From Aliiroseovarius pelagivivens (GTDB taxonomy: Bacteria > Pseudomonadota > Alphaproteobacteria > Rhodobacterales > Rhodobacteraceae): a DNA stretch of 64,000 nucleotides. The notes under the pieces are model-generated. The model ran no database searches and was not told where the DNA came from. It saw only the letters and a program-made list of their open reading frames with translations. The translations under genes and the position numbers were made by a program. The stretch is taken from positions 1 to 64,000 of the forward strand of contig NZ_OMOI01000001.1 of the NCBI RefSeq assembly GCF_900302485.1, in the 5' to 3' direction. Below are positions 2,592 through 14,241 of the stretch, piece by piece (within the stretch, counting starts at the first letter, position 1; every line of letters begins with the position of its first letter).

Positions 2592-2660
2592 GTCTCCAAA
2601 GCTGCAGAGTCGGATAATTGTATCTGATTTGAAATGACTGCTTTGGGGAGGGGCTTTCAA

Positions 2661-3911
2661 ATGCCGAATTTTACATACTTTAATGGAAACCAGGGTGCAT
2701 ACCGCTGGGGTGACCTGAACACCGATGACTATAATGTGAACACTTGGAATTCGAGTGGCGCGACGCTTGTCTATAACGGTAACGACGGGCCCTATGACCC
2801 GACGCGCAGCCCATATCGGGCCGAACTTGTATTTGCGAACGCTGTGGAACACACAATCGAGACTGGCCCAGATGCTGGGGATACTGTGTTTATCGGCGGA
2901 AAGCTAAAGACGATCCGTTACTACAACAAAAATGGCGATCTCATCATGGAGATCACAGGTCTAGACATCAGCTTGTCTTGGTTGTCAGCGCAGTTGCGCA
3001 GCAACGACCTCTACGATTTGGGTAGAGCGATCTATGCAAAAGGGGCGACGTTCATTGGCTCAAACGATGGTAGCGGCCCTGATAGTGATTGGACTGGTGA
3101 GAGCATCAATACTAGCTATCGCAACGACAAGGTGAAAGCCAAAGGGGGGGACGACTATATCTCTGACTTTGGCGGAGCCGACGTTTATAACGGCGGCGGA
3201 GGCTGGGATACCGTCAGCTATATGGAAGTCTATTGGAACCCCCATCTTGGCACCAAAGGTATCAAAGTCGATTTCAACAAAGGCACAATTCGCGGGTACG
3301 ACGGCAAGGTTGACACGATCAAAAGCATTGAAGGTGTGCGTGGTACCTACATGAAAGACACGTTTTATGGGGACAAGAAAGACAATGCCTTCATGGGGTT
3401 GGCCGGCAACGATTATATCAATGGTCGGGGTGGGTTTGACTACGTCCAGTATAGAAGAGATGACCAGCAAGGCGGCACGGACGGGGTAAAGGTCGACCTA
3501 AAAGCGGGGACGGCGCGTGACGGTTTCGGGAACACCGATACACTGGTCAGCATCGAAGGCGCTGGGGGAACCGATTACAACGACGTGTTCCGCGACAACA
3601 AAAAGGATAACTTCTTCCGAGGCCGGGATGGAGACGACCGTTTCATTCTGACCAAGGGGGATGACCGCGTCCGTGGCGATGATGGTGCGGACACCTTCGT
3701 GTTTAAGAGCAACAACTGGGAACATGACTGGATCGAAGATTTCGACGATTCCGAAGGCGACAAGATCGAGCTGAACCATGCAACTCAGTTTTCCGACCTG
3801 ACGATCTTTCAGGATGGCTCGAATACGGTGATTGAATATCAGGGCAACAGCATCACGTTGGAAGACTTCACGGCGACCGATTTGGATGCGGGCGATTTCA
3901 TTTTTGTTTGA
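2661..3911 (+). CDS. RTX-type calcium-binding secreted protein
   Basis: This is a 416-residue acidic protein without visible cysteines and without an N-terminal signal peptide, as expected of type I secretion substrates. Degenerate glycine/aspartate repeats appear at about residues 157-187 (GGDDYISDFGGADVYNGGGG), 246-264 (GLAGNDYINGRGGFD) and 319-348 (GRDGDDRF, KGDDRVRGDDGADTFVF). These bind calcium in the family. Two ~100-residue internal segments are homologous to each other (GIKVDFNKGTIR and GVKVDLKAGTAR). The C-terminus, ITLEDFTATDLDAGDFIFV, looks like a secretion tail. The ATG at 2661 follows a strong GGGGAGGGG. The N-terminal 150 residues match no domain I know. No ABC/HlyD genes are adjacent. 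The start of an HlyD adaptor is at the far end of the window. Confidence 0.85.
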   Translation: MPNFTYFNGNQGAYRWGDLNTDDYNVNTWNSSGATLVYNGNDGPYDPTRSPYRAELVFANAVEHTIETGPDAGDTVFIGGKLKTIRYYNKNGDLIMEITGLDISLSWLSAQLRSNDLYDLGRAIYAKGATFIGSNDGSGPDSDWTGESINTSYRNDKVKAKGGDDYISDFGGADVYNGGGGWDTVSYMEVYWNPHLGTKGIKVDFNKGTIRGYDGKVDTIKSIEGVRGTYMKDTFYGDKKDNAFMGLAGNDYINGRGGFDYVQYRRDDQQGGTDGVKVDLKAGTARDGFGNTDTLVSIEGAGGTDYNDVFRDNKKDNFFRGRDGDDRFILTKGDDRVRGDDGADTFVFKSNNWEHDWIEDFDDSEGDKIELNHATQFSDLTIFQDGSNTVIEYQGNSITLEDFTATDLDAGDFIFV

Positions 3912-5407: not shown

Positions 5408-5473
<66 letters not shown>

Positions 5474-5484
<11 letters not shown>

Positions 5485-5542
5485 AAAGCTGATTAGTAAT
5501 CAGGTACTTAAAGGTCGCCCTTGGGCGGCCTTTTTGTTTGGG
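5474..5542 (+). repeat. Direct repeat copy 1: tRNA-fMet 3' end, trailer and terminator
   Basis: The stretch from TCCCGC of the acceptor stem through GTAATCAG, the hairpin and TTTTTGTTTGGG recurs with scattered substitutions at 9781-9850. This copy includes the functional tRNA end. Together the copies bracket a recombinase remnant and the adhesin gene, as attachment-site repeats of an integrated element would. Confidence 0.8.
5509..5537 (+). terminator. Terminator of tRNA-fMet
   Basis: AAAGGTCGCCC, TTG loop region, GGCGGCCTTT, then TTTTGTTT: a GC-rich stem with one U-G pair followed by a U-run, 25 nt after the tRNA. A near-identical hairpin is at 9819-9846. Confidence 0.85.
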
Positions 5543-5633
5543 TGATTGCTTGTGGAAGCAATTGGAAGCGTTTCACGGAGCAAGAGGTGGAACGCGAGAG
5601 GTGATTTCCGCGGTCTCGCTTTTTGATGTCTGA

Positions 5634-5867
5634 TCATTCAGCGGCGACGCTGGATCGGCGACCTTGCCCCGTTAGATGTCAGTGAAGAACAGGTTGTTCG
5701 GGTTTTAAGCTGGCTCGCTCGGTTCCTAGCGCCGTTTTTCGATGTTCAAGATCATCCATCTTCGCCTTCAAGCCGGGATGAAAAATTCCTTCGGTGATGG
5801 CCTCGATTATTCTGGCGATTTGCGTGGTGACCTTTACGAGCTCGCGTTCCTAGTCCGCTGTGGTTTT
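5634..5867 (-). pseudogene. Decayed serine recombinase, C-terminal region
   Basis: On the minus strand one frame reads ERELVKVTTQ, then IARIIEAITEGIFHPGLKAK, then MDDLEHRKTALGTERASL and KPEQPVLH. This resembles the coiled-coil C-terminal part of Rhodobacteraceae serine-family site-specific recombinases (pattern ...I..I..AI..G.FHP.MKAKMD.LE..K..LE). The frame is interrupted by stops at 5850-5852, 5679-5681 and 5634-5636. The catalytic resolvase domain and zinc ribbon are absent, so it is a dead remnant. It lies 150 bp beyond tRNA-fMet and inside the pair of tRNA-tail repeats. A 65-aa ORF reading another frame through the same bases is spurious. Nothing else recognisable lies in 5543-6125. Confidence 0.6.
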
Positions 5868-6125
5868 CCATGAGCAGTTCTGTGTGTAAGGGCGCATGGC
5901 GCAGGTCTGAATAAGGTTTCGGGTGACGTAGGGGAATAAAAAATACCACGTGCAGCAGAATTGCTTGACTTATTAACCATCATGTCAAAACGTGGCGCGG
6001 AGCTGCAGGTTTCCTGCGGAAGCGCGACAATATTGGAATGGTTGGATAATTTTTGGTTCCGCGGGGCGCATGAAATCCCAATTGCGGTCAGGTTTATTCA
6101 ACTAGAAGGGGATAGCCTAGTGTGG

Positions 6126-9100
6126 ATGAGAAAAGGGTGCTTTGGCGCCAACGAGAAAGTGTCTTTTGAGAAAACGCGAGAAGCGGCAGGCTTGAGCAGA
6201 AAGATACTAGATCGTGTCGCACAGGTGAAGATACTGTTCGTAGCGATGCTGCTGTCGATCATTTCAACTGCTTCCATCGCTCAGACTCTATCGTGGTCGT
6301 TGTCATCCTCGACCTACACGACCGCCGGCCAAACACTCACTTACACATATAGCTATCATACCGGAAATTACCTGGTCGGAAGTGTTTCTATCACTCCGAC
6401 GTTTTTCAACCAATTTGGCACACCGGTATCCGGAAGCGTCGGTGCAACTACCTGTTCGGGGTTGCCCACCTCAAGCCTGAACCAGACAATTACTTGCTCG
6501 GGAACATACACGGTTCACGCAAGTGATACGGACAACGGTGACGCGATCAACGCTGTCGTGAATGGAACTGACTGGTCGGCTACGCAACCAAGTGGTGGAT
6601 GGGCAGGCGGCGGCACACCGGCCAGCCCGGGTCAATTGACGGCTACTTTTGATCCGCCCCCGTCGGTCAGCATCAGCTCGACGACCAGCAGTACGACAGG
6701 TGTGAATCCCATTCCGGTGACCTTCAACTTCTCGGAATCAGTGAGCAACTTCGTCTCAGGAGATGTATCGGTCACAGGAGGAACCCTGTCTGGATTCTCG
6801 GGATCCGGATCCAGTTATTCGGCGAATATTACTCCCTCTGGCCCCGGAACGATTACGGTTAATGTCGCGGCCAATGTGGCAGTCGATTCTTCCGGAAGTG
6901 GCAACACCGCCGCGCTGCAACTCACCAGAACCTATGCAGGCGATACAACGCCGCCGCGGGTATCCTCAATCACCCGCCAAAATCCGGCTGCTTCGCCGAC
7001 CAATGCCGATAGTTTGATATGGCGCGTGACCTTCAACGAAGCCGTCAGCGGTGTGTCCGCCGCTTCATTCGCCCCTTCCGGCACAACGGGAACGGCGACC
7101 GTTTCCAGCGCCGGGGGCAATGCCTATGACGTGACAGTCTCAGGTGGCAATTTGGCTGGCCTGAGCGGCACCGTGACCCTGGGCCTTTCAGGATCGCACG
7201 GCATCTCTGATTCTGCGGGTAACGCTTTGACAAATGTGGCGCCGACAGGGGCCAATGAAAGCTTTGTGGTCGACAACACTGCGCCCACCACGACGATCAC
7301 TTCAACCGCGACCAGCCCAACCAACACGTCCCCGATTCCGGTCACAGTGACCTTCTCAGAGGTGGTGACTGGTTTTGCTGATACGGATGTTTCCGTCGGC
7401 AACGGCAGCGTGTCCAGCTTTGCTGGATCGGGCACGACCTATACGTTCAACGTCATCCCAGCGGCCGACGGCAACGTCACCGTTAATGTGGCCGCGAACG
7501 TGGCGGCCGATGCAGCTGGCAACAACAATACCGCTGCGACGCAGTTTGCGATTACCTTTGATGGGACAGCGCCCACCACGACGATTACGTCAACCGCGAC
7601 CAGCCCAACTAACACGTCCCCGATCCCGGTCACAGTGACCTTCTCAGAGGTGGTGACTGGTTTTGCTGATACGGATGTTTCTGTCGGCAACGGCAGCGTG
7701 TCCAGCTTTGCTGGATCGGGCACGACCTATACGTTCAACGTCATCCCAGCGGCCGACGGCAACGTCACCGTTAATGTGGCCGCGAACGTGGCGGCCGATG
7801 CGGCTGGCAACAACAATACCGCTGCGACGCAGTTCGCGATTACCTTCGATGGGACAGCGCCCACCACGACGATTACGTCAACCGCGACCAGCCCAACCAA
7901 CACGTCCCCGATCCCGGTCACAGTGACCTTCTCAGAGGTGGTGACTGGTTTTGCAGATACGGATGTTTCTGTCGGCAACGGCAGCGTGTCCAGCTTTGCT
8001 GGATCGGGCACGACCTATACGTTCAACGTCATCCCAGCGGCCGACGGCAACGTCACCGTTAATGTGGCCGCGAACGTGGCGGCCGATGCGGCTGGCAACA
8101 ACAATACCGCTGCGACGCAGTTTGCGATCACCTATGATGGGACAGCGCCCACCACGACGATCACTTCAACCGCGACCAGCCCAACCAACACGTCCCCGAT
8201 CCCGGTCACAGTGACCTTCTCAGAGGCGGTGACAGGTTTTGCAGATACGGATGTTTCTGTCGGCAACGGCAGCGTGTCCAGCTTTGCTGGATCGGGCACG
8301 ACCTATACGTTCAACGTCATCCCAGCGGCCGACGGCAACGTCACCGTTAATGTGGCCGCGAACGTGGCGGCCGATGCGGCTGGAAACGGCAATGCCGCTG
8401 CGACGCAGCTAAGCATAGAGTATGATTCAACGTCCCCTGGCTTAACAATCAGCGGTGTCCCCGGCGCCTATCTTCCGGGCGATACTTTTGTTGTGACCTT
8501 CACATTCGCTGAAAACGTGACAGGCTTTGACGCGAGTGATGTTGTTGTTACCGGGGGTAACTTGTCAAACTTCGCAGGTGGGTCGCCGGTTTGGACCGCA
8601 ACTGTGACGCCTGGAAATACCAGCGATGTCACCGTGGCGGTATCTGCAGGGGCTGCTCAGGATGCGGCTGGCAATGATACAAACGGGGCCAGCGCAACAT
8701 CTGCGATCGACTCGGCCGCAATTTCGAGCGAGCAGATTGCCTACTTCATGGAAAATCGGGCGCACTCTCTGATTTCCAACCAACCCAATTTGACGCGGTT
8801 CTTGGGTGGCCGTTCGGGTGGGCGTTTTAATGCCACCATCAGCAGTAGCGCCATGGGCGTTGATTTTGCCAGTGGCGCGGGTGGGCCAGCATGGTTCACG
8901 TTCCAAGGCTCACATAGTGAGTCCGGAACTACGGAGCTAACCTATGGGCTGTTCTCTTTTGGCACACAGATTGTCAAAAATGAGAACCTGCTCGTCGGCA
9001 TCATGGCCCAGCTGGACCATTCTGAACAGATGTCGGACAGTGGCATCTGGACGACCGGCACCGGCTGGTTGGCGGGTCCGTACATGGTCCGTCGCCTTGG

Positions 9101-9635
9101 CGATCAACCGCTCTTCCTCGAGGCTCGACTGCTTGCAGGTCAAAGCCACAACAGAATCTCGCCGCTCGGTACATTCACTGACCAGTTCACCAGCAGCCGG
9201 TTGTTGGCCAAGGTTGGGATTGAGGGCCAGTATCAGCTCGGCTCGGCTCTTTTGTTCCCGAACCTGAACATCAGCCATGTGCACGACGCTCAGAAGGCGT
9301 ATCTAGATGGGCTCAACAACCTGGTTCCGAGACAATCGGTGTCGCTGACAGAGTTTGATCTGGGGATTGACTTCGAGGCGCCGGTTGCTGTGTCGCGAGG
9401 TGAGTTGACGCTCACTGGTGGACTGTCAGGTTCGTACTACCGCACAGCGGCTAGCGGGCCGGCGATTAACTACATCTCGGTTGGCGACAGCTGGAACAGC
9501 CGCGTTGATCTGGGTCTGCGCTACCGTGCGGAAAATGGTCTGACCATTACAACGGGCGCCTATTTGACCGGCTTGACCTCTAATGCCCCGCTCCAAAGCT
9601 ACGGCGCTACCCTGCAGCTTGAGGTTGGCTTCTGA
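6126..9635 (+). CDS. Large Ig-repeat adhesin with autotransporter-like beta-barrel
   Basis: This is a protein of about 1169 residues. A hydrophobic signal segment (about 36-52, ending STASIA) is followed by an N-terminal beta-rich domain and bacterial Ig-like domains (SxTTxxTNxSPIPVTVTFSE type). Four almost identical 96-residue copies occupy about residues 386-769. A ~300-residue C-terminal domain (from about 867) consists of alternating strands and ends QLEVGF with a terminal aromatic, as in autotransporter or outer-membrane barrels. The likely role is surface attachment. Start choice is uncertain: ATG 6126 leaves a 35-residue n-region, and in-frame candidates also exist at 5961 (TTG), 5982, 6225 (GTG) and 6246. 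The gene lies between two copies of the tRNA-fMet tail and beside a recombinase remnant, so it was probably acquired. Confidence 0.8.
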   Translation: MRKGCFGANEKVSFEKTREAAGLSRKILDRVAQVKILFVAMLLSIISTASIAQTLSWSLSSSTYTTAGQTLTYTYSYHTGNYLVGSVSITPTFFNQFGTPVSGSVGATTCSGLPTSSLNQTITCSGTYTVHASDTDNGDAINAVVNGTDWSATQPSGGWAGGGTPASPGQLTATFDPPPSVSISSTTSSTTGVNPIPVTFNFSESVSNFVSGDVSVTGGTLSGFSGSGSSYSANITPSGPGTITVNVAANVAVDSSGSGNTAALQLTRTYAGDTTPPRVSSITRQNPAASPTNADSLIWRVTFNEAVSGVSAASFAPSGTTGTATVSSAGGNAYDVTVSGGNLAGLSGTVTLGLSGSHGISDSAGNALTNVAPTGANESFVVDNTAPTTTITSTATSPTNTSPIPVTVTFSEVVTGFADTDVSVGNGSVSSFAGSGTTYTFNVIPAADGNVTVNVAANVAADAAGNNNTAATQFAITFDGTAPTTTITSTATSPTNTSPIPVTVTFSEVVTGFADTDVSVGNGSVSSFAGSGTTYTFNVIPAADGNVTVNVAANVAADAAGNNNTAATQFAITFDGTAPTTTITSTATSPTNTSPIPVTVTFSEVVTGFADTDVSVGNGSVSSFAGSGTTYTFNVIPAADGNVTVNVAANVAADAAGNNNTAATQFAITYDGTAPTTTITSTATSPTNTSPIPVTVTFSEAVTGFADTDVSVGNGSVSSFAGSGTTYTFNVIPAADGNVTVNVAANVAADAAGNGNAAATQLSIEYDSTSPGLTISGVPGAYLPGDTFVVTFTFAENVTGFDASDVVVTGGNLSNFAGGSPVWTATVTPGNTSDVTVAVSAGAAQDAAGNDTNGASATSAIDSAAISSEQIAYFMENRAHSLISNQPNLTRFLGGRSGGRFNATISSSAMGVDFASGAGGPAWFTFQGSHSESGTTELTYGLFSFGTQIVKNENLLVGIMAQLDHSEQMSDSGIWTTGTGWLAGPYMVRRLGDQPLFLEARLLAGQSHNRISPLGTFTDQFTSSRLLAKVGIEGQYQLGSALLFPNLNISHVHDAQKAYLDGLNNLVPRQSVSLTEFDLGIDFEAPVAVSRGELTLTGGLSGSYYRTAASGPAINYISVGDSWNSRVDLGLRYRAENGLTITTGAYLTGLTSNAPLQSYGATLQLEVGF
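7281..8432 (+). repeat. Four tandem 288-bp repeats inside the adhesin gene
   Basis: Units begin at 7281, 7569, 7857 and 8145, each starting GCGCCCACCACGACGAT and each exactly 288 bp (96 codons). They differ at only a few positions, for example GAGGTGGTG versus GAGGCGGTG in unit 4 and AACAACAAT versus GGAAACGGC near the end of unit 4. The DNA-level identity points to recent expansion or gene conversion and makes the copy number likely to vary. Confidence 0.95.
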
Positions 9636-9780
9636 GCTAAACAACTATGGTTCCTACCATGAGGCTGTATTGCGCGACGCGGAATGAGCCATCTTCATCG
9701 TGGTAGGAGCCAGCCTTGACTTGAAACTAGGCGATGGCTTGATCGCCCCATCAAACTGGGTGCGCCTTGTATTCGGGTGG

Positions 9781-9850
9781 TCCCGCTGCCAGAAACTTGA
9801 TTGGTAATCAGATACTTGAAGGTCGCCTTTGGGCGGCCTTTTTGTTTGGG
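9781..9850 (+). repeat. Direct repeat copy 2: tRNA-fMet tail, trailer and terminator
   Basis: TCCCGCTGCCA corresponds to the tRNA end TCCCGCAACCA at 5474-5484. The trailer GATTGGTAATCAGATACTT matches GATTAGTAATCAGGTACTT, and the hairpin plus TTTTTGTTTGGG is nearly identical. The body of a tRNA is missing upstream, so only the last bases are duplicated. Confidence 0.8.
9819..9846 (+). terminator. Terminator in repeat copy 2
   Basis: AAGGTCGCC-TTTG-GGCGGCCTT followed by TTTGTTT is the same hairpin as at 5509-5537. It could terminate transcription running out of the adhesin gene. Confidence 0.7.
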
Positions 9851-10129
9851 AAAAGGCTTGGTGCTGCGCACAAGAGCAGCGCCTTGCGCGCACGAAGGAA
9901 CGTTCGGACTCAGTGACAGATGAATGGCTGGTCCCCGGTTCAGCGCCCCCGTCATGATCCAATCGCGGTCGAGGCACCATTGATCTGTGTCATGGCTTTG
10001 CGTGTGAGCATGCGAAAAACTGAGGCCAACCCGGGCCATTGTTCCGGTTGTCGGCATTGCTGGCACTGAACCACTCATGAAAATAGAGCGTCAGAAGAGA
10101 CGCGGCTGGCAAGGGGATCAAGCGAAGGA

Positions 10130-11587
10130 ATGGAAGACCCTCAGGTCAGCGCAACAAATGATCCCGAATTGCTTGATCGCACATCGAGGAAACCTGCCAC
10201 GCAGCGGGAACTCAACATGGCGCAACGCATCATGGCGTCGATGGTTGGAGAGCTCCTCGCCCGGCCTTGGCTGGACTGGCTGATCCTGCAAACTCTTAAA
10301 CGGTTGTTCTTTCCATTTTCGCGGCTCTGGGCTGCCGCACGCGCCGCAAATGGCGAGATCGAGGCCTTTGCCGAGGCCGCGCCCCTGACACGTCCAATCA
10401 GAACCCGAGGCAGGTTGCGTCGGGCGCTACGAATTTTTGAACGTGAACGCGCCAACATCAATAGTGTCGAGTTCTTCTGGCATGAGAACTTCTTTGGCCC
10501 CACCGAGGTATCGGACCGCCATCTCGCCGCATTGGAAGAGGCGCGCCTGCATGCCCGCAGCCGGTTCAACGCCACCCGACGGTATTTCACCTATTTGCGG
10601 CTCTGGCTGGCCACCACCGTCTATCCTGCCTTTGCCACACCGCAGGAGTTCGAGGCGACTTACGGCGTTACCGGCGCTGAATTTGAACGCCTATTCGAGC
10701 CACCCGTCGCCATGCCCGCCGTACAGGTGTCGCGTGGCGTGCCCACGCCTTCGGGTCGGGATTACTGGATCCGCTTTGCCTCGCCGGCGGAACATCTCGG
10801 AGATGATGTCTATGCCCGCGTGCACGAGCCCGTCGGCGTCGAGAACCCTCCTACGTTGATCTTTGGTCACGGCATCTGCGTCGAGTTTGACCACTGGCGC
10901 AATCTGGTCGACCCGATCGCCATGTTGCCGCGCCGTGGTATCCGCGTGATCCGGCCAGAAGGCCCTTGGCATGGGCGGCGCGTACCCGAGGGGTACTACG
11001 GCGGCGAAATGTTCCTGTCGCGTGCGCCGATGGGCGAGTTCGACTATTTCACTGCCCAACACAAGGAGTGGGCCGTGCTGATGGATTGGGCCCGTCGGAC
11101 CAGTACCGGACCCGTCGCATTCGGCGGCAGCAGCCTTGGCGCACAAGCGGCCCAGATGGCGGCTATCCGGGCGCAGACTTGGCCCAAAGCGTTGCAACCC
11201 GATGCCCTGTTCTTGATGACCCACTGTGAACACGTCGGGGATGTGGCCACCGACAGTGACCTGTCCGATATCTGGGGGCTTCACGAACCGCTGGCCAAGC
11301 TTGGCTGGAACAAGGACATGCAGAAGGACTGGTTGTCCAAGCTTGACCCGATGGGCCTTCCAGTCATGCCGCCCGAGCGGATTATCAGCATCCTTGGTCG
11401 CAAAGACCGGGTAACGCATTTTGCCTCGGGTCAACGTTTGCAGGATAAATGGAACCTGCCGATGGAAAACCGTTTCATCTGGCCCTGTGGGCATTTCACT
11501 GTTCCACTTCGGCTGGGGCGTGATGCGCGGCCGCTGGACCGGCTTCGCGCCATATTCGACGACATCCCTCATCGAGGTGCAGAATAG
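10130..11587 (+). CDS. Alpha/beta hydrolase (ABHD18/DUF2048-like)
   Basis: This 485-residue protein has an alpha/beta-hydrolase core in its second half. The strand leading to HG appears as LIFGHGIC (about 243-250). The nucleophile elbow is GGSSLGAQ (Ser about 333). The likely catalytic His is in WPCGHFTVPLRLG (about 463), preceded by the acid-bearing SILGRKDRVTHF. The N-terminal ~200 residues are helical, as in ABHD18-like proteins. The start ATG 10130 follows GCGAAGGA. Its stop overlaps by one base the GTG start of the PlsB-like acyltransferase, so the two are probably one operon. A lipid ester substrate is an inference from that partner. No signal peptide is seen. Confidence 0.75.
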   Translation: MEDPQVSATNDPELLDRTSRKPATQRELNMAQRIMASMVGELLARPWLDWLILQTLKRLFFPFSRLWAAARAANGEIEAFAEAAPLTRPIRTRGRLRRALRIFERERANINSVEFFWHENFFGPTEVSDRHLAALEEARLHARSRFNATRRYFTYLRLWLATTVYPAFATPQEFEATYGVTGAEFERLFEPPVAMPAVQVSRGVPTPSGRDYWIRFASPAEHLGDDVYARVHEPVGVENPPTLIFGHGICVEFDHWRNLVDPIAMLPRRGIRVIRPEGPWHGRRVPEGYYGGEMFLSRAPMGEFDYFTAQHKEWAVLMDWARRTSTGPVAFGGSSLGAQAAQMAAIRAQTWPKALQPDALFLMTHCEHVGDVATDSDLSDIWGLHEPLAKLGWNKDMQKDWLSKLDPMGLPVMPPERIISILGRKDRVTHFASGQRLQDKWNLPMENRFIWPCGHFTVPLRLGRDARPLDRLRAIFDDIPHRGAE

Positions 11588-13053
11588 TGTTGGAGCGCGA
11601 GGTCGCTCTGCCTATCTGGCTGGCATTGCCGGTTCTTGCGTTGGCGTTGCTCGGGGCACGGGCCTATATCGTCGAACCGCTGGTGCGCCGGGCGCTGCTA
11701 CGCCGCGAGCGTGATCTCAAGACACGGCTCAACACCACTCTGACCCGACCGTTGCCCAAGGTGTTGCAAGTTCCACGCCGGGTGCTGACCGAACGTCTCT
11801 TCAACGATCCGATTGTGCAGCAAGCCATCGAGGACGCCGCTGAAACCGACGGTCACGAAGCAGCCGAGACAGAAGCCCGCGCCTATATCGACGAACTGAT
11901 GCCGTCGTTCTTCGCATTGTTCTATTTCCATGTTGGGTATTGGCTGGCGCGGCGCTGGCTGCGCTCGATGTATGATATCCAAATTGTGAAACAGCTGCCG
12001 CCCGATGCCTATGCCGATATCCCCGAGGACGCCAGCATCGTGCTGGTCGGCAATCACCGCTCGAACCTTGATGTGGCGGTGCTTAGCTATCTGGCGGCCC
12101 GCACCAGCATGATTTCCTTTGCCGCGGGGGAATGGGCGTCGGTCTGGCCGGTCAATCGGATCATGCAGATGAGTGGGTGTTACATAATTCGACGTGAATC
12201 TCAGGGTAGGCTCTACAAGACCGTGCTGGCCCGGTATGTCCACATGATGATCGGCGCGCGCATGCCTCAGGGCATCTTTCTTGAAGGCGGGCTTAGCCGC
12301 GACGGTGCGATTCAGCCGATCAAGCTGGGGCTGATGCGATACATCTTGGCGGGCCTTGGCACAGGGGAAACACGCGACATCGTCTTCATCCCCGTCGCCT
12401 TCAACTATGACCGCGTGCCCGAAGATATGACGCTTCTGGCGCATCAGGATCAGGGGTTTACCAAGAAATCCCGACTTTACACGATCCGCAGCACCGCCTG
12501 GCATTCCTTGGGGATGATCGCGCGATTGCTGCGTATCCGGCGTCAACGGTTCGGGCAGGCGGCGGTCAGCTTCGGCCCGGCGTTCTCGGTTCGTAAATGG
12601 CTGACCGAGCATGAAGAGTCTGTCGAGACGCTCGATGATGCCAGACGCAAGGCCATCGTGGCGCCGATTGCAGAAAACATCATCGGACAGATCGCCAACA
12701 TGATCCCAGTCTTGCCGGTGTCGCTGGTGGCTACCGTGATCCGCGACAAGGATGGAGTGATCTCGCGTCGGCAGTTGCGCCGGGAGGTCCTGCAGTTGAT
12801 TGAACGCTTGCGCACGGCCGAAGTACCGCTCGCGATCAACGAGGCCGACGACCCGAATGCCAGCGAGCTTGGTCTTCAGGTGTTGTTGTCACGCGGAGTG
12901 GTCATTGAAGAGGCTGGCCAGCTGAAGTCGGACCCAGACAAGGTGGCGCTGCTACAATACTATGCGCATACCATCTCGCACTACTTGGTCGATGAAGAGG
13001 CCGCAGCCCAGTTGAGCAGCATCCTTACGGTCCCGGAACCCAGCCGCGCGTGA
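11587..13053 (+). CDS. PlsB-like glycerol-3-phosphate acyltransferase
   Basis: This 488-residue protein has an N-terminal hydrophobic helix (about 6-26). The acyltransferase block NHRSNLD (H-x4-D, about residue 155) is present, as are the substrate-binding motif FLEGGLSRDG (about 230-239) and a downstream VFIPVAFNYDRVPE block typical of PlsB-family enzymes. It would transfer an acyl group to glycerol-3-phosphate or a related polyol at the cytoplasmic membrane. It is shorter than enterobacterial PlsB (~800 aa) but in the range of alphaproteobacterial homologues. The GTG start at 11587 overlaps the hydrolase stop. A TTG one codon later is an alternative. The pairing with a hydrolase suggests a dedicated lipid-remodelling unit separate from core PlsX/PlsY. 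Confidence 0.8.
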   Translation: MLEREVALPIWLALPVLALALLGARAYIVEPLVRRALLRRERDLKTRLNTTLTRPLPKVLQVPRRVLTERLFNDPIVQQAIEDAAETDGHEAAETEARAYIDELMPSFFALFYFHVGYWLARRWLRSMYDIQIVKQLPPDAYADIPEDASIVLVGNHRSNLDVAVLSYLAARTSMISFAAGEWASVWPVNRIMQMSGCYIIRRESQGRLYKTVLARYVHMMIGARMPQGIFLEGGLSRDGAIQPIKLGLMRYILAGLGTGETRDIVFIPVAFNYDRVPEDMTLLAHQDQGFTKKSRLYTIRSTAWHSLGMIARLLRIRRQRFGQAAVSFGPAFSVRKWLTEHEESVETLDDARRKAIVAPIAENIIGQIANMIPVLPVSLVATVIRDKDGVISRRQLRREVLQLIERLRTAEVPLAINEADDPNASELGLQVLLSRGVVIEEAGQLKSDPDKVALLQYYAHTISHYLVDEEAAAQLSSILTVPEPSRA

Positions 13054-13172
13054 CCCGACTGTCGGGAAAACTTACGTGCAACTTTGCTTGAAATAGCCCG
13101 GCATGTACTTGGCCGGAGCTTACATCCCGCCATTCATCCAGACCGTGGCGAAAGGTTGCTGAGTCCAGAATC

Positions 13173-13203
13173 AAAAACCCCTCCTGAAAAGGAAGGGTTT
13201 TTG
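13173..13203. terminator. Bidirectional terminator between acyltransferase and zinc-ribbon genes
   Basis: AAAAACCC-C-TCC, TGAAAA loop, GGA-A-GGGTTTTT: an 11-bp stem with one mismatch, A-rich 5' and T-rich 3'. It suits termination of both convergent genes. Confidence 0.8.
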
Positions 13204-13209
13204 GCTAAC

Positions 13210-14241
13210 TCAACCTCCTGAGGAGGTGTCCATCAGGCCGCGCATTTTTTCGACTGCGGACTGCATGGCCCCCTCGAGCCAGACCCGGAGGCTGTCGCCC
13301 ATCGCGGTATACTGTTCTAGTGCGCTCTGAGCTTGTGGGAAACGTTCGCCGATTTGCGGGGCAAGTACATAGATGCTGACCAGCAGCACAGCCAGCAAAA
13401 TTGTCAGGCTGAACCCGCGACGGAACCCTTTCCCACTAGAAGCGGCTTCGGTTCCCGACGGTCCTAAATCAATCTTAGTTTCGTCTGGGGTGTCCGGCGC
13501 GTCGAGGGTCGAGTTGATCTCTTCAATGTCCGGAAGCATGTCGCGGCTTCGCAGATCCTTTTCCTGGATCTCTTCTTCTACATCGCCTTGGTCAAGCTCC
13601 ATACGTCGGATGCGAGCAGTGAGCTCCTTGTCGGCATCGTCCTGCGCTGAGTCCAATCCAAGATCCGGCTGCGTCTCAAGTCCTTGATGGTCAGCCTCGC
13701 GGGCACGTAGCTCTTGCTCGGCCTCTTCCTGAAGGATCTGCTTGACCTCTTCGCTAACCTCTTTGCGGGGCGCAGCTGCGGCGGGGATCGGGGCGTCATC
13801 TACGACGTCGTTATCGCTCTCGTCGCTTTCGTCAGGGGCAGTATCGGGCGTGTCCTCGACTTCGACTTCGACGTCGTCATCGATTTCGGCTGCGTCTTCT
13901 TCTTCGGCTGCGTCCTCTACCTCTGCTGCGCCGTCATCTTCTACAGATTCCGCCACTTCGGTTTCGTCTTCGCTTTCAGGGCTATCGACGCTCGGTTCAA
14001 CTTCTGGGGCTGGGTCGGCAATCGGATCAGGTTCTGGTGTTTCGTCGACATGGGACGCCTGCGGAGCCGGGATCTCGATCTTCGGCTCGGGTTTGTCCTC
14101 AACCTCGGTTGTTGCGGGTAGTGGCGGGGTGAAAAACCAGGCGTGACCACAATTCGAACACTGAACGTCGCGACCCTCTTCGGGCATAACGCGATCATCA
14201 ACTTCGTACTGAGCGCCGCAATTGGGGCAAACTAAACGCAT
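13210..14241 (-). CDS. Zinc-ribbon, acidic, single-pass membrane protein
   Basis: This is a 343-residue protein. The N-terminus carries an MJ0042-type zinc ribbon (C5-x2-C8 and C28-x2-C31, in CPNCGAQYEV and CSNCGHAWFF). Residues about 45-270 are extremely rich in Glu, Asp, Pro and Ala and likely disordered. One transmembrane helix follows at about 280-297 (LTILLAVLLVSIYVLA), then a ~45-residue tail. The gene is divergent from ftsE with 158 bp between, an arrangement common in Rhodobacteraceae. That suggests, without proving, a division or envelope-linked role. Function is unknown. The acidic stretch creates long antisense ORFs that are not genes. Confidence 0.8.
   Translation of the reverse strand: MRLVCPNCGAQYEVDDRVMPEEGRDVQCSNCGHAWFFTPPLPATTEVEDKPEPKIEIPAPQASHVDETPEPDPIADPAPEVEPSVDSPESEDETEVAESVEDDGAAEVEDAAEEEDAAEIDDDVEVEVEDTPDTAPDESDESDNDVVDDAPIPAAAAPRKEVSEEVKQILQEEAEQELRAREADHQGLETQPDLGLDSAQDDADKELTARIRRMELDQGDVEEEIQEKDLRSRDMLPDIEEINSTLDAPDTPDETKIDLGPSGTEAASSGKGFRRGFSLTILLAVLLVSIYVLAPQIGERFPQAQSALEQYTAMGDSLRVWLEGAMQSAVEKMRGLMDTSSGG

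Follow-up and report, generated by a model that had tools for sequence, protein, structure and literature searches.

Integration into tRNA genes is credited to tyrosine integrases. In Islander-type islands, a tyrosine integrase uses a tRNA gene as the target, the tRNA is rebuilt, its displaced 3′ fragment lies at the far end and insertions may be stacked. The locus described here resembles these islands in its target, the rebuilt tRNA and the stacking of insertions at the site, and has a candidate for the displaced 3′ fragment, whereas the recombinase linked with it is a large serine recombinase (LSR). The SCC elements with their Ccr recombinases provide a further parallel; there, LSRs target a conserved gene at its 3′ end, and composite stacks as well as members lacking a recombinase are known. 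In our case, by contrast, the target is a tRNA gene and there is one recombinase gene, which overlaps its target antisense. A 2015 survey (Islander 2015) states that LSRs were not known to use tRNA genes; in M. abscessus, tyrosine rather than serine integrases are reported at tRNA genes, and the main text of a large LSR survey does not mention tRNA (term count 0). An earlier predicted case of a serine recombinase at a tRNA-Met site is phiPam-6 of Paracoccus aminophilus (PMC3925955). As far as its published description goes, it shares with our locus a serine-family recombinase, a predicted tRNA-Met site, short direct repeats (17 bp in phiPam-6) and a related host group, but the printed repeat differs from the fMet 3′ end seen here, and phiPam-6 is an inducible prophage whereas our locus is a relic. 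A literature search that ran without most subscription journals found no paper linking a serine integrase with tRNA-fMet, and none was found on the peptide GFEPTTF.

The window analysed here is a stretch of 64,000 nt from Aliiroseovarius pelagivivens and contains the single full tRNA-fMet match of the genome (3.33 Mb, 4 contigs). The original prediction held that the tail of this tRNA gene recurs behind an adhesin gene, and the aligned repeats agree with it: 5474–5542, i.e. the tRNA end (5474–5484) with trailer and terminator, is found again at 9781–9850 with 87% identity (E 4.5e-17). The genome thus comprises one full fMet and two tails, the remaining matches listed having E values of 0.05 or worse, and a similarity search of the genome did not find a third copy of the tail. 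Each tail can form a stable hairpin that precedes a T run, and the terminator pattern had 0 matches in 100 shuffles of the window. The features of the locus are collected in Table 1.

Table 1. Features around tRNA-fMet in the window and candidate far ends of LSR elements in other genomes
Feature	Position	Strand	Basis or remark
tRNA-fMet (CAT), intact target gene	5408–5484	+	ARAGORN, Rfam
Tail 1, trailer and terminator hairpin immediately 3′ of the tRNA	5485–5542	+	
Relic, C-terminal part of an LSR, reading towards the tRNA	5682–5849	-	profile E 1.8e-10, hmm 400–453 of 536
Ig-repeat ORF, 1224 aa, true start uncertain; cargo or later arrival	5961–9635	+	Big_12 repeats
Candidate attR core, 11 nt resembling the tRNA-fMet 3′ end (nt 67–77)	9781–9791	+	9/11 identical
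Tail 2, trailer and terminator resembling tail 1, also 3′ of the Ig-repeat ORF on its strand	9793–9850	+	
Hydrolase-like gene	10130–11587	+	present in 1/21 genus genomes
Acyltransferase	11587–13053	+	acyltransferase domains
Far-side gene, synteny kept in several relatives	13210–14241	-	
Candidate LSR-element far end, G127	29 kb		
Candidate LSR-element far end, G124	61 kb		
Candidate LSR-element far end, G046	116 kb		
Candidate LSR-element far end, G091	34 kb		LSR with one stop
Candidate LSR-element far end, G063	19 kb		second, longer fragment <100 bp further

The decayed serine recombinase that had been proposed next to the tRNA withstands a profile search. After removal of the tRNA-encoded tail, 20 distinct LSRs, all intact, were made into a profile that was compared with the 2204 stop-to-stop segments of the window; the minus-strand segment given in Table 1 was recovered with 54 aligned residues, while the runner-up had an E value of 6.7. 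Across 55 aa, the relic is 58% identical to the LSR of locus L127. Pfam and PHROGs searches gave no match since the relic is a C-terminal part, a region that neither of them covers. By coordinate reckoning, its distance from the tRNA is about that of the same segment in intact genes, with a frame change between. The relic has lost the catalytic domain, 5474–9850 contains neither an N-terminal LSR part nor another mobility gene, and the GC content of the remnant stretch is 0.517 as compared with 0.585 for the window. This copy of the recombinase is dead.

Intact relatives exist at the same tRNA, where the original prediction had proposed to look for them. Using as query an LSR piece that included the tRNA-encoded tail and was therefore biased towards fMet-adjoining matches, a protein search of 295 family genomes gave matches in 41 at E 1e-30, and a full tRNA-fMet is present at the LSR end in 22 of 30 loci, a 3′ fMet fragment in 6 and neither in 2. 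Because of this bias, PF07508 was drawn as a check in 61 family genomes and yielded 98 rows in 41 genomes. Twelve rows, corresponding to 11 loci in 11 genomes, lie less than 1.6 kb from a full or partial fMet; all 11 loci are convergent with fMet and none is arranged otherwise, the domain match being 740–860 bp from the tRNA (959 for the second row of one locus). The remaining 86 rows are LSRs away from fMet, as judged from fMet positions in the 41 genomes, 7 of which have no fMet match at E 1e-5. Among 32 related loci in named records, at least 3 of which look identical to records already in the family-genome set, a full fMet lies at the LSR end in 18, a partial one in 5 and none in 9; these records include Tateyamaria, Ruegeria, Paracoccus, Jhaorihella, Roseomonas and Roseococcus.

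With one exception (L146), the 22 LSR ORFs longer than 500 aa run in frame into the tRNA and stop there at 43 nt from the tRNA 3′ end. We had considered this constant stop as a mark of the crossover but dropped the idea, since it is a consequence of the antisense frame of the tRNA. When 38 LSRs were placed in a tree, the 22 that are fMet-linked grouped together (3 changes versus a shuffled mean of 5.5, with 1 of 500 shuffles as low), and a few other LSRs fall among them; the tree is compatible with one origin of the fMet-linked LSRs or with several. The intact LSR of locus L217, from Tateyamaria sp. Alg231-49, contains PF00239, PF07508 and PF13408 (Resolvase, Recombinase and zinc-ribbon) in this order, all above cut-off. 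The intact LSR resembles the phage LSR integrases in matching phrog_95 (E 9.9e-92), whereas the best of 16 matched phage records, from Microcystis phage Mae-JY30, is 40.5% identical. Membership in the SCC group was discarded, all scores against the Ccr models being far below their cut-offs (CcrB 108 bits, cut-off 900; CcrC 69, cut-off 900; CcrA 29, cut-off 700).

Within the genus, fMet is an insertion hotspot. An fMet match is found in 20 of 21 genomes, and a full fMet is present at 18 loci among the 20 stretches fetched from 18 relatives. In 17 of these 18, the tRNA is preceded by a PagL-like gene, and the far-side gene of the window, a putative zinc-ribbon gene, follows it in 7, at a distance of 2.2–14.6 kb. 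Most genomes differ from one another in the sequence that follows the CCA. Of 19 genomes, a count that leaves out G008 and G017 and includes the window's own genome, 7 have an LSR or a relic of one flush with fMet at E 1e-3, namely G000, G002, G005, G006, G013, G018 and G019. In G018 the trailer type of the window is followed by an LSR relic; G009 and G010 also have this trailer type, and no LSR relic was found at their fMet. Stacked insertions are common at the site, with fMet fragments at 13 and 86 kb in G010 and several in G295.

In G295, genes for a HerA-type helicase (PF01935) and a SIR2-like protein (PF13289), a combination that occurs in phage defence, lie on an insertion at fMet (L152, 1991–4776). 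In several family genomes (L111, L115, L118, L121), contigs stop exactly at the 3′ end of an fMet gene closing an rRNA operon; this would be the case if the insertions behind fMet differed from one operon copy to the next.

Displaced fMet fragments fall into two classes. The long ones extend from nt 22–34 to nt 77 (~44–56 nt) and include the 50-nt fragment at the far end of a 13-kb element in G010 with a tyrosine integrase at fMet; we no longer consider them as far ends of LSR elements, because the class holds this element and the candidate second ends of LSR elements are short. The short class, with 16–21 nt of tRNA downstream of an LSR at fMet, provides five candidate second ends (Table 1), which were assigned to their LSR elements by order and strand alone. 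In addition, one right half is found in L215 (G033), in G280 and in Lentibacter, where it adjoins 12 nt, CTCCCGCAACCA; because a similar right half adjoins 18 nt at a second place in G033 (L182), the estimate of 12 nt is less sharp. The junctions at L215 and L248 were also examined as unintegrated attP and set aside, as they could equally be joints between stacked elements. A GC-rich repeat with at least two copies and a spacer, CRISPR-array-like by eye, lies beside the LSR-joined right half in G033 (L215, 1300–1400). The tRNA part of the second copy in the window comprises only 11 nt, 9 of them identical, against 16–21 nt in the five LSR elements and 12 nt in the one right end, and comes nearest to the short class.

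The trailer is a different matter. We compared the 70 nt after the tRNA end for both ends of 21 pairs, including that of the window, and for 859 cross pairs. The trailers of the window match at 59 of 69 aligned positions, which is equalled by 0.6% of the cross pairs. Next come G026 C48 (1.3%) and G018 (1.6%), while for the other 18 pairs the share of cross pairs with an equally high score is 4.2% to 95%; no notable likeness is seen between the end trailers of the five LSR elements (8–74%). Since the trailers of 18 of the 20 other pairs are much less alike, the trailer half is not an att repeat, and the proposal that trailer and terminator belong to a normal att repeat is not supported. Recombination at the tRNA end alone leaves this half unexplained. 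It would be accounted for by gene conversion between the two ends or by an element with a trailer acquired from the lineage itself.

The ORF between the two tails contains seven Big_12 Ig-like stretches, so that the Ig repeats of the predicted autotransporter-like gene are real, whereas Pfam, NCBIfam and PHROGs lend no support to an autotransporter. Four 288-bp repeat units (7278–8441), 90–97% identical to the first unit, suggest a recent expansion inside the ORF. Its C-terminal part has relatives at two other places in the same genome and in 5 other genomes of the genus, there on contigs different from the fMet contig. The N-terminal part has a weak match (33%, E 1.6e-6) in L060 (G011), within a 3881-aa ORF 7.7 kb behind fMet. 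With a GC content of 0.576, the ORF is close to the 0.585 of the window, and the gene would be either cargo of an element or a later joiner. An ORF with RTX calcium-binding repeats (PF00353) is located to the left of fMet (2634–3911). Beyond tail 2, neither the hydrolase nor the acyltransferase gene was found in 20 relatives' loci, and none of the other genus genomes searched has the hydrolase gene at 10130; 10130–13053 is a possible second insertion outside the repeat. The far side is therefore not the clean chromosome edge that had been assumed.

On balance, the evidence leans towards 5474–9850 being the remains of an integrative element placed in the 3′ end of tRNA-fMet by an LSR of the fMet-specific group. 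From the relic beside fMet, the link of the group with fMet, the hotspot and the repeat, all of which are observed, we infer an order of events and a chemistry in which the copy at 9781 represents attR, an assignment that depends on one 11-nt stretch. The element would bear a copy of the tRNA 3′ end, which the LSR would recombine with the host gene somewhere in the last 12–21 nt. The host tRNA would thereby be restored, with the terminator brought by the element next to it and, beyond this, the LSR gene running antisense into the tRNA, and the displaced tRNA end with the previous trailer would mark the far end. In the window, decay would since have left ~54 recognisable codons of the LSR and 11 nt of tRNA at the far end. 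We favour this reading because the relic is on the expected side and strand of fMet, because LSRs or relics are flush with fMet in 7/19 genus genomes examined and G018 pairs the trailer type with a relic, because all 11 PF07508 loci just described as well as 28/30 and 23/32 LSR loci adjoin fMet, and because candidate ends of LSR elements hold 16–21 nt (five cases) or 12 nt (three genomes) of tRNA. Against it, the repeat reaches 58 nt into the trailer, unlike most other pairs, less tRNA is present at the far end than in the five LSR elements, the interval lacks an LSR N-terminus or other mobility gene, and 9850 is followed by a gene that the genus otherwise lacks. An uninterrupted fMet terminator joined to the 9851 flank was likewise not found in the relatives, since the hydrolase gene that follows 9850 is present in 1/21 genus genomes. 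The predicted element layout is supported by the hotspot, the dead recombinase with intact relatives at the same place and a tRNA fragment at the far end whose length is roughly as expected.

Since the gene after 9850 is foreign, this position could be a joint within a stack. Tail 2 would then be the trailer that stood at fMet before the latest insertion, 5474–13200 an array of at least two elements and the repeat an inner joint. The uniqueness of the hydrolase gene and the frequency of stacks at the site (G010, G295) fit such an array, but an LSR relic was looked for behind tail 2 and not found, and no third tail precedes the far-side gene at 13210, so that we hold stacking to be rather unlikely, though it deserves to be kept in mind. 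The marked likeness of the trailers, which are the best-kept part of the repeat and have no counterpart in most other element pairs, can also be accounted for by a plain duplication or gene conversion of trailer and terminator without att meaning, the relic stemming from an unrelated old insertion. The copy might have been kept as terminator of the adhesin gene, as tail 2 lies 186 nt after the ORF on the same strand and folds as a terminator. However, the copy begins exactly within the tRNA 3′ end, like other element ends at fMet, and a similar tail pair exists in G018; we consider a mere duplication improbable.

Two further origins can be given little weight. Elements of the anticodon-loop class with a tyrosine integrase do use the same tRNA, as in the G010 example with its 50-nt far fragment, and could have made the layout with the LSR relic being incidental; but they leave ~44–56 nt, whereas the window has 11 nt with nothing upstream, and no tyrosine integrase is visible in the interval, which makes this origin very improbable. 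Least credible of all is that a further, degraded tRNA-fMet gene ends in the second copy. The copy does combine a tRNA 3′ end with a trailer, yet there is no tRNA signal 5′ of 9781, since 25% of random window sites align equally well to nt 33–66, and neither ARAGORN nor Rfam detects a tRNA gene at the second copy.

Coming back to the LSR-made element, of which the window would be a fossil, it seems likely that Rhodobacteraceae and some other families have an LSR group specialised for tRNA-fMet, with genes ending antisense in the tRNA, the same DNA thus serving as target, terminator and recombinase C-terminus, that other LSRs overlap other tRNA genes, and that tRNA targeting arose in serine integrases too. 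If so, the rule that serine integrases spare tRNA genes (Islander 2015) fails for a recurrent group, and such islands would escape island finders that search tRNA genes for tyrosine integrases only. Diverse LSRs with one common conserved natural target would also permit a comparison of DNA recognition by serine integrases.

The A. pelagivivens genome contains two further LSR genes, of 541 and 612 aa (L197, G000:C1:1014500-1019500; L198, G000:C1:706500-711000), which are located 172 bp from tRNA-Glu and 361 bp from tRNA-Gln, respectively. In other family genomes, the ORFs at 4 of 20 LSR loci fetched (L204, L206, L208 and L216) overlap a tRNA-Phe, a tRNA with a CAT anticodon and two tRNA-Ser genes.
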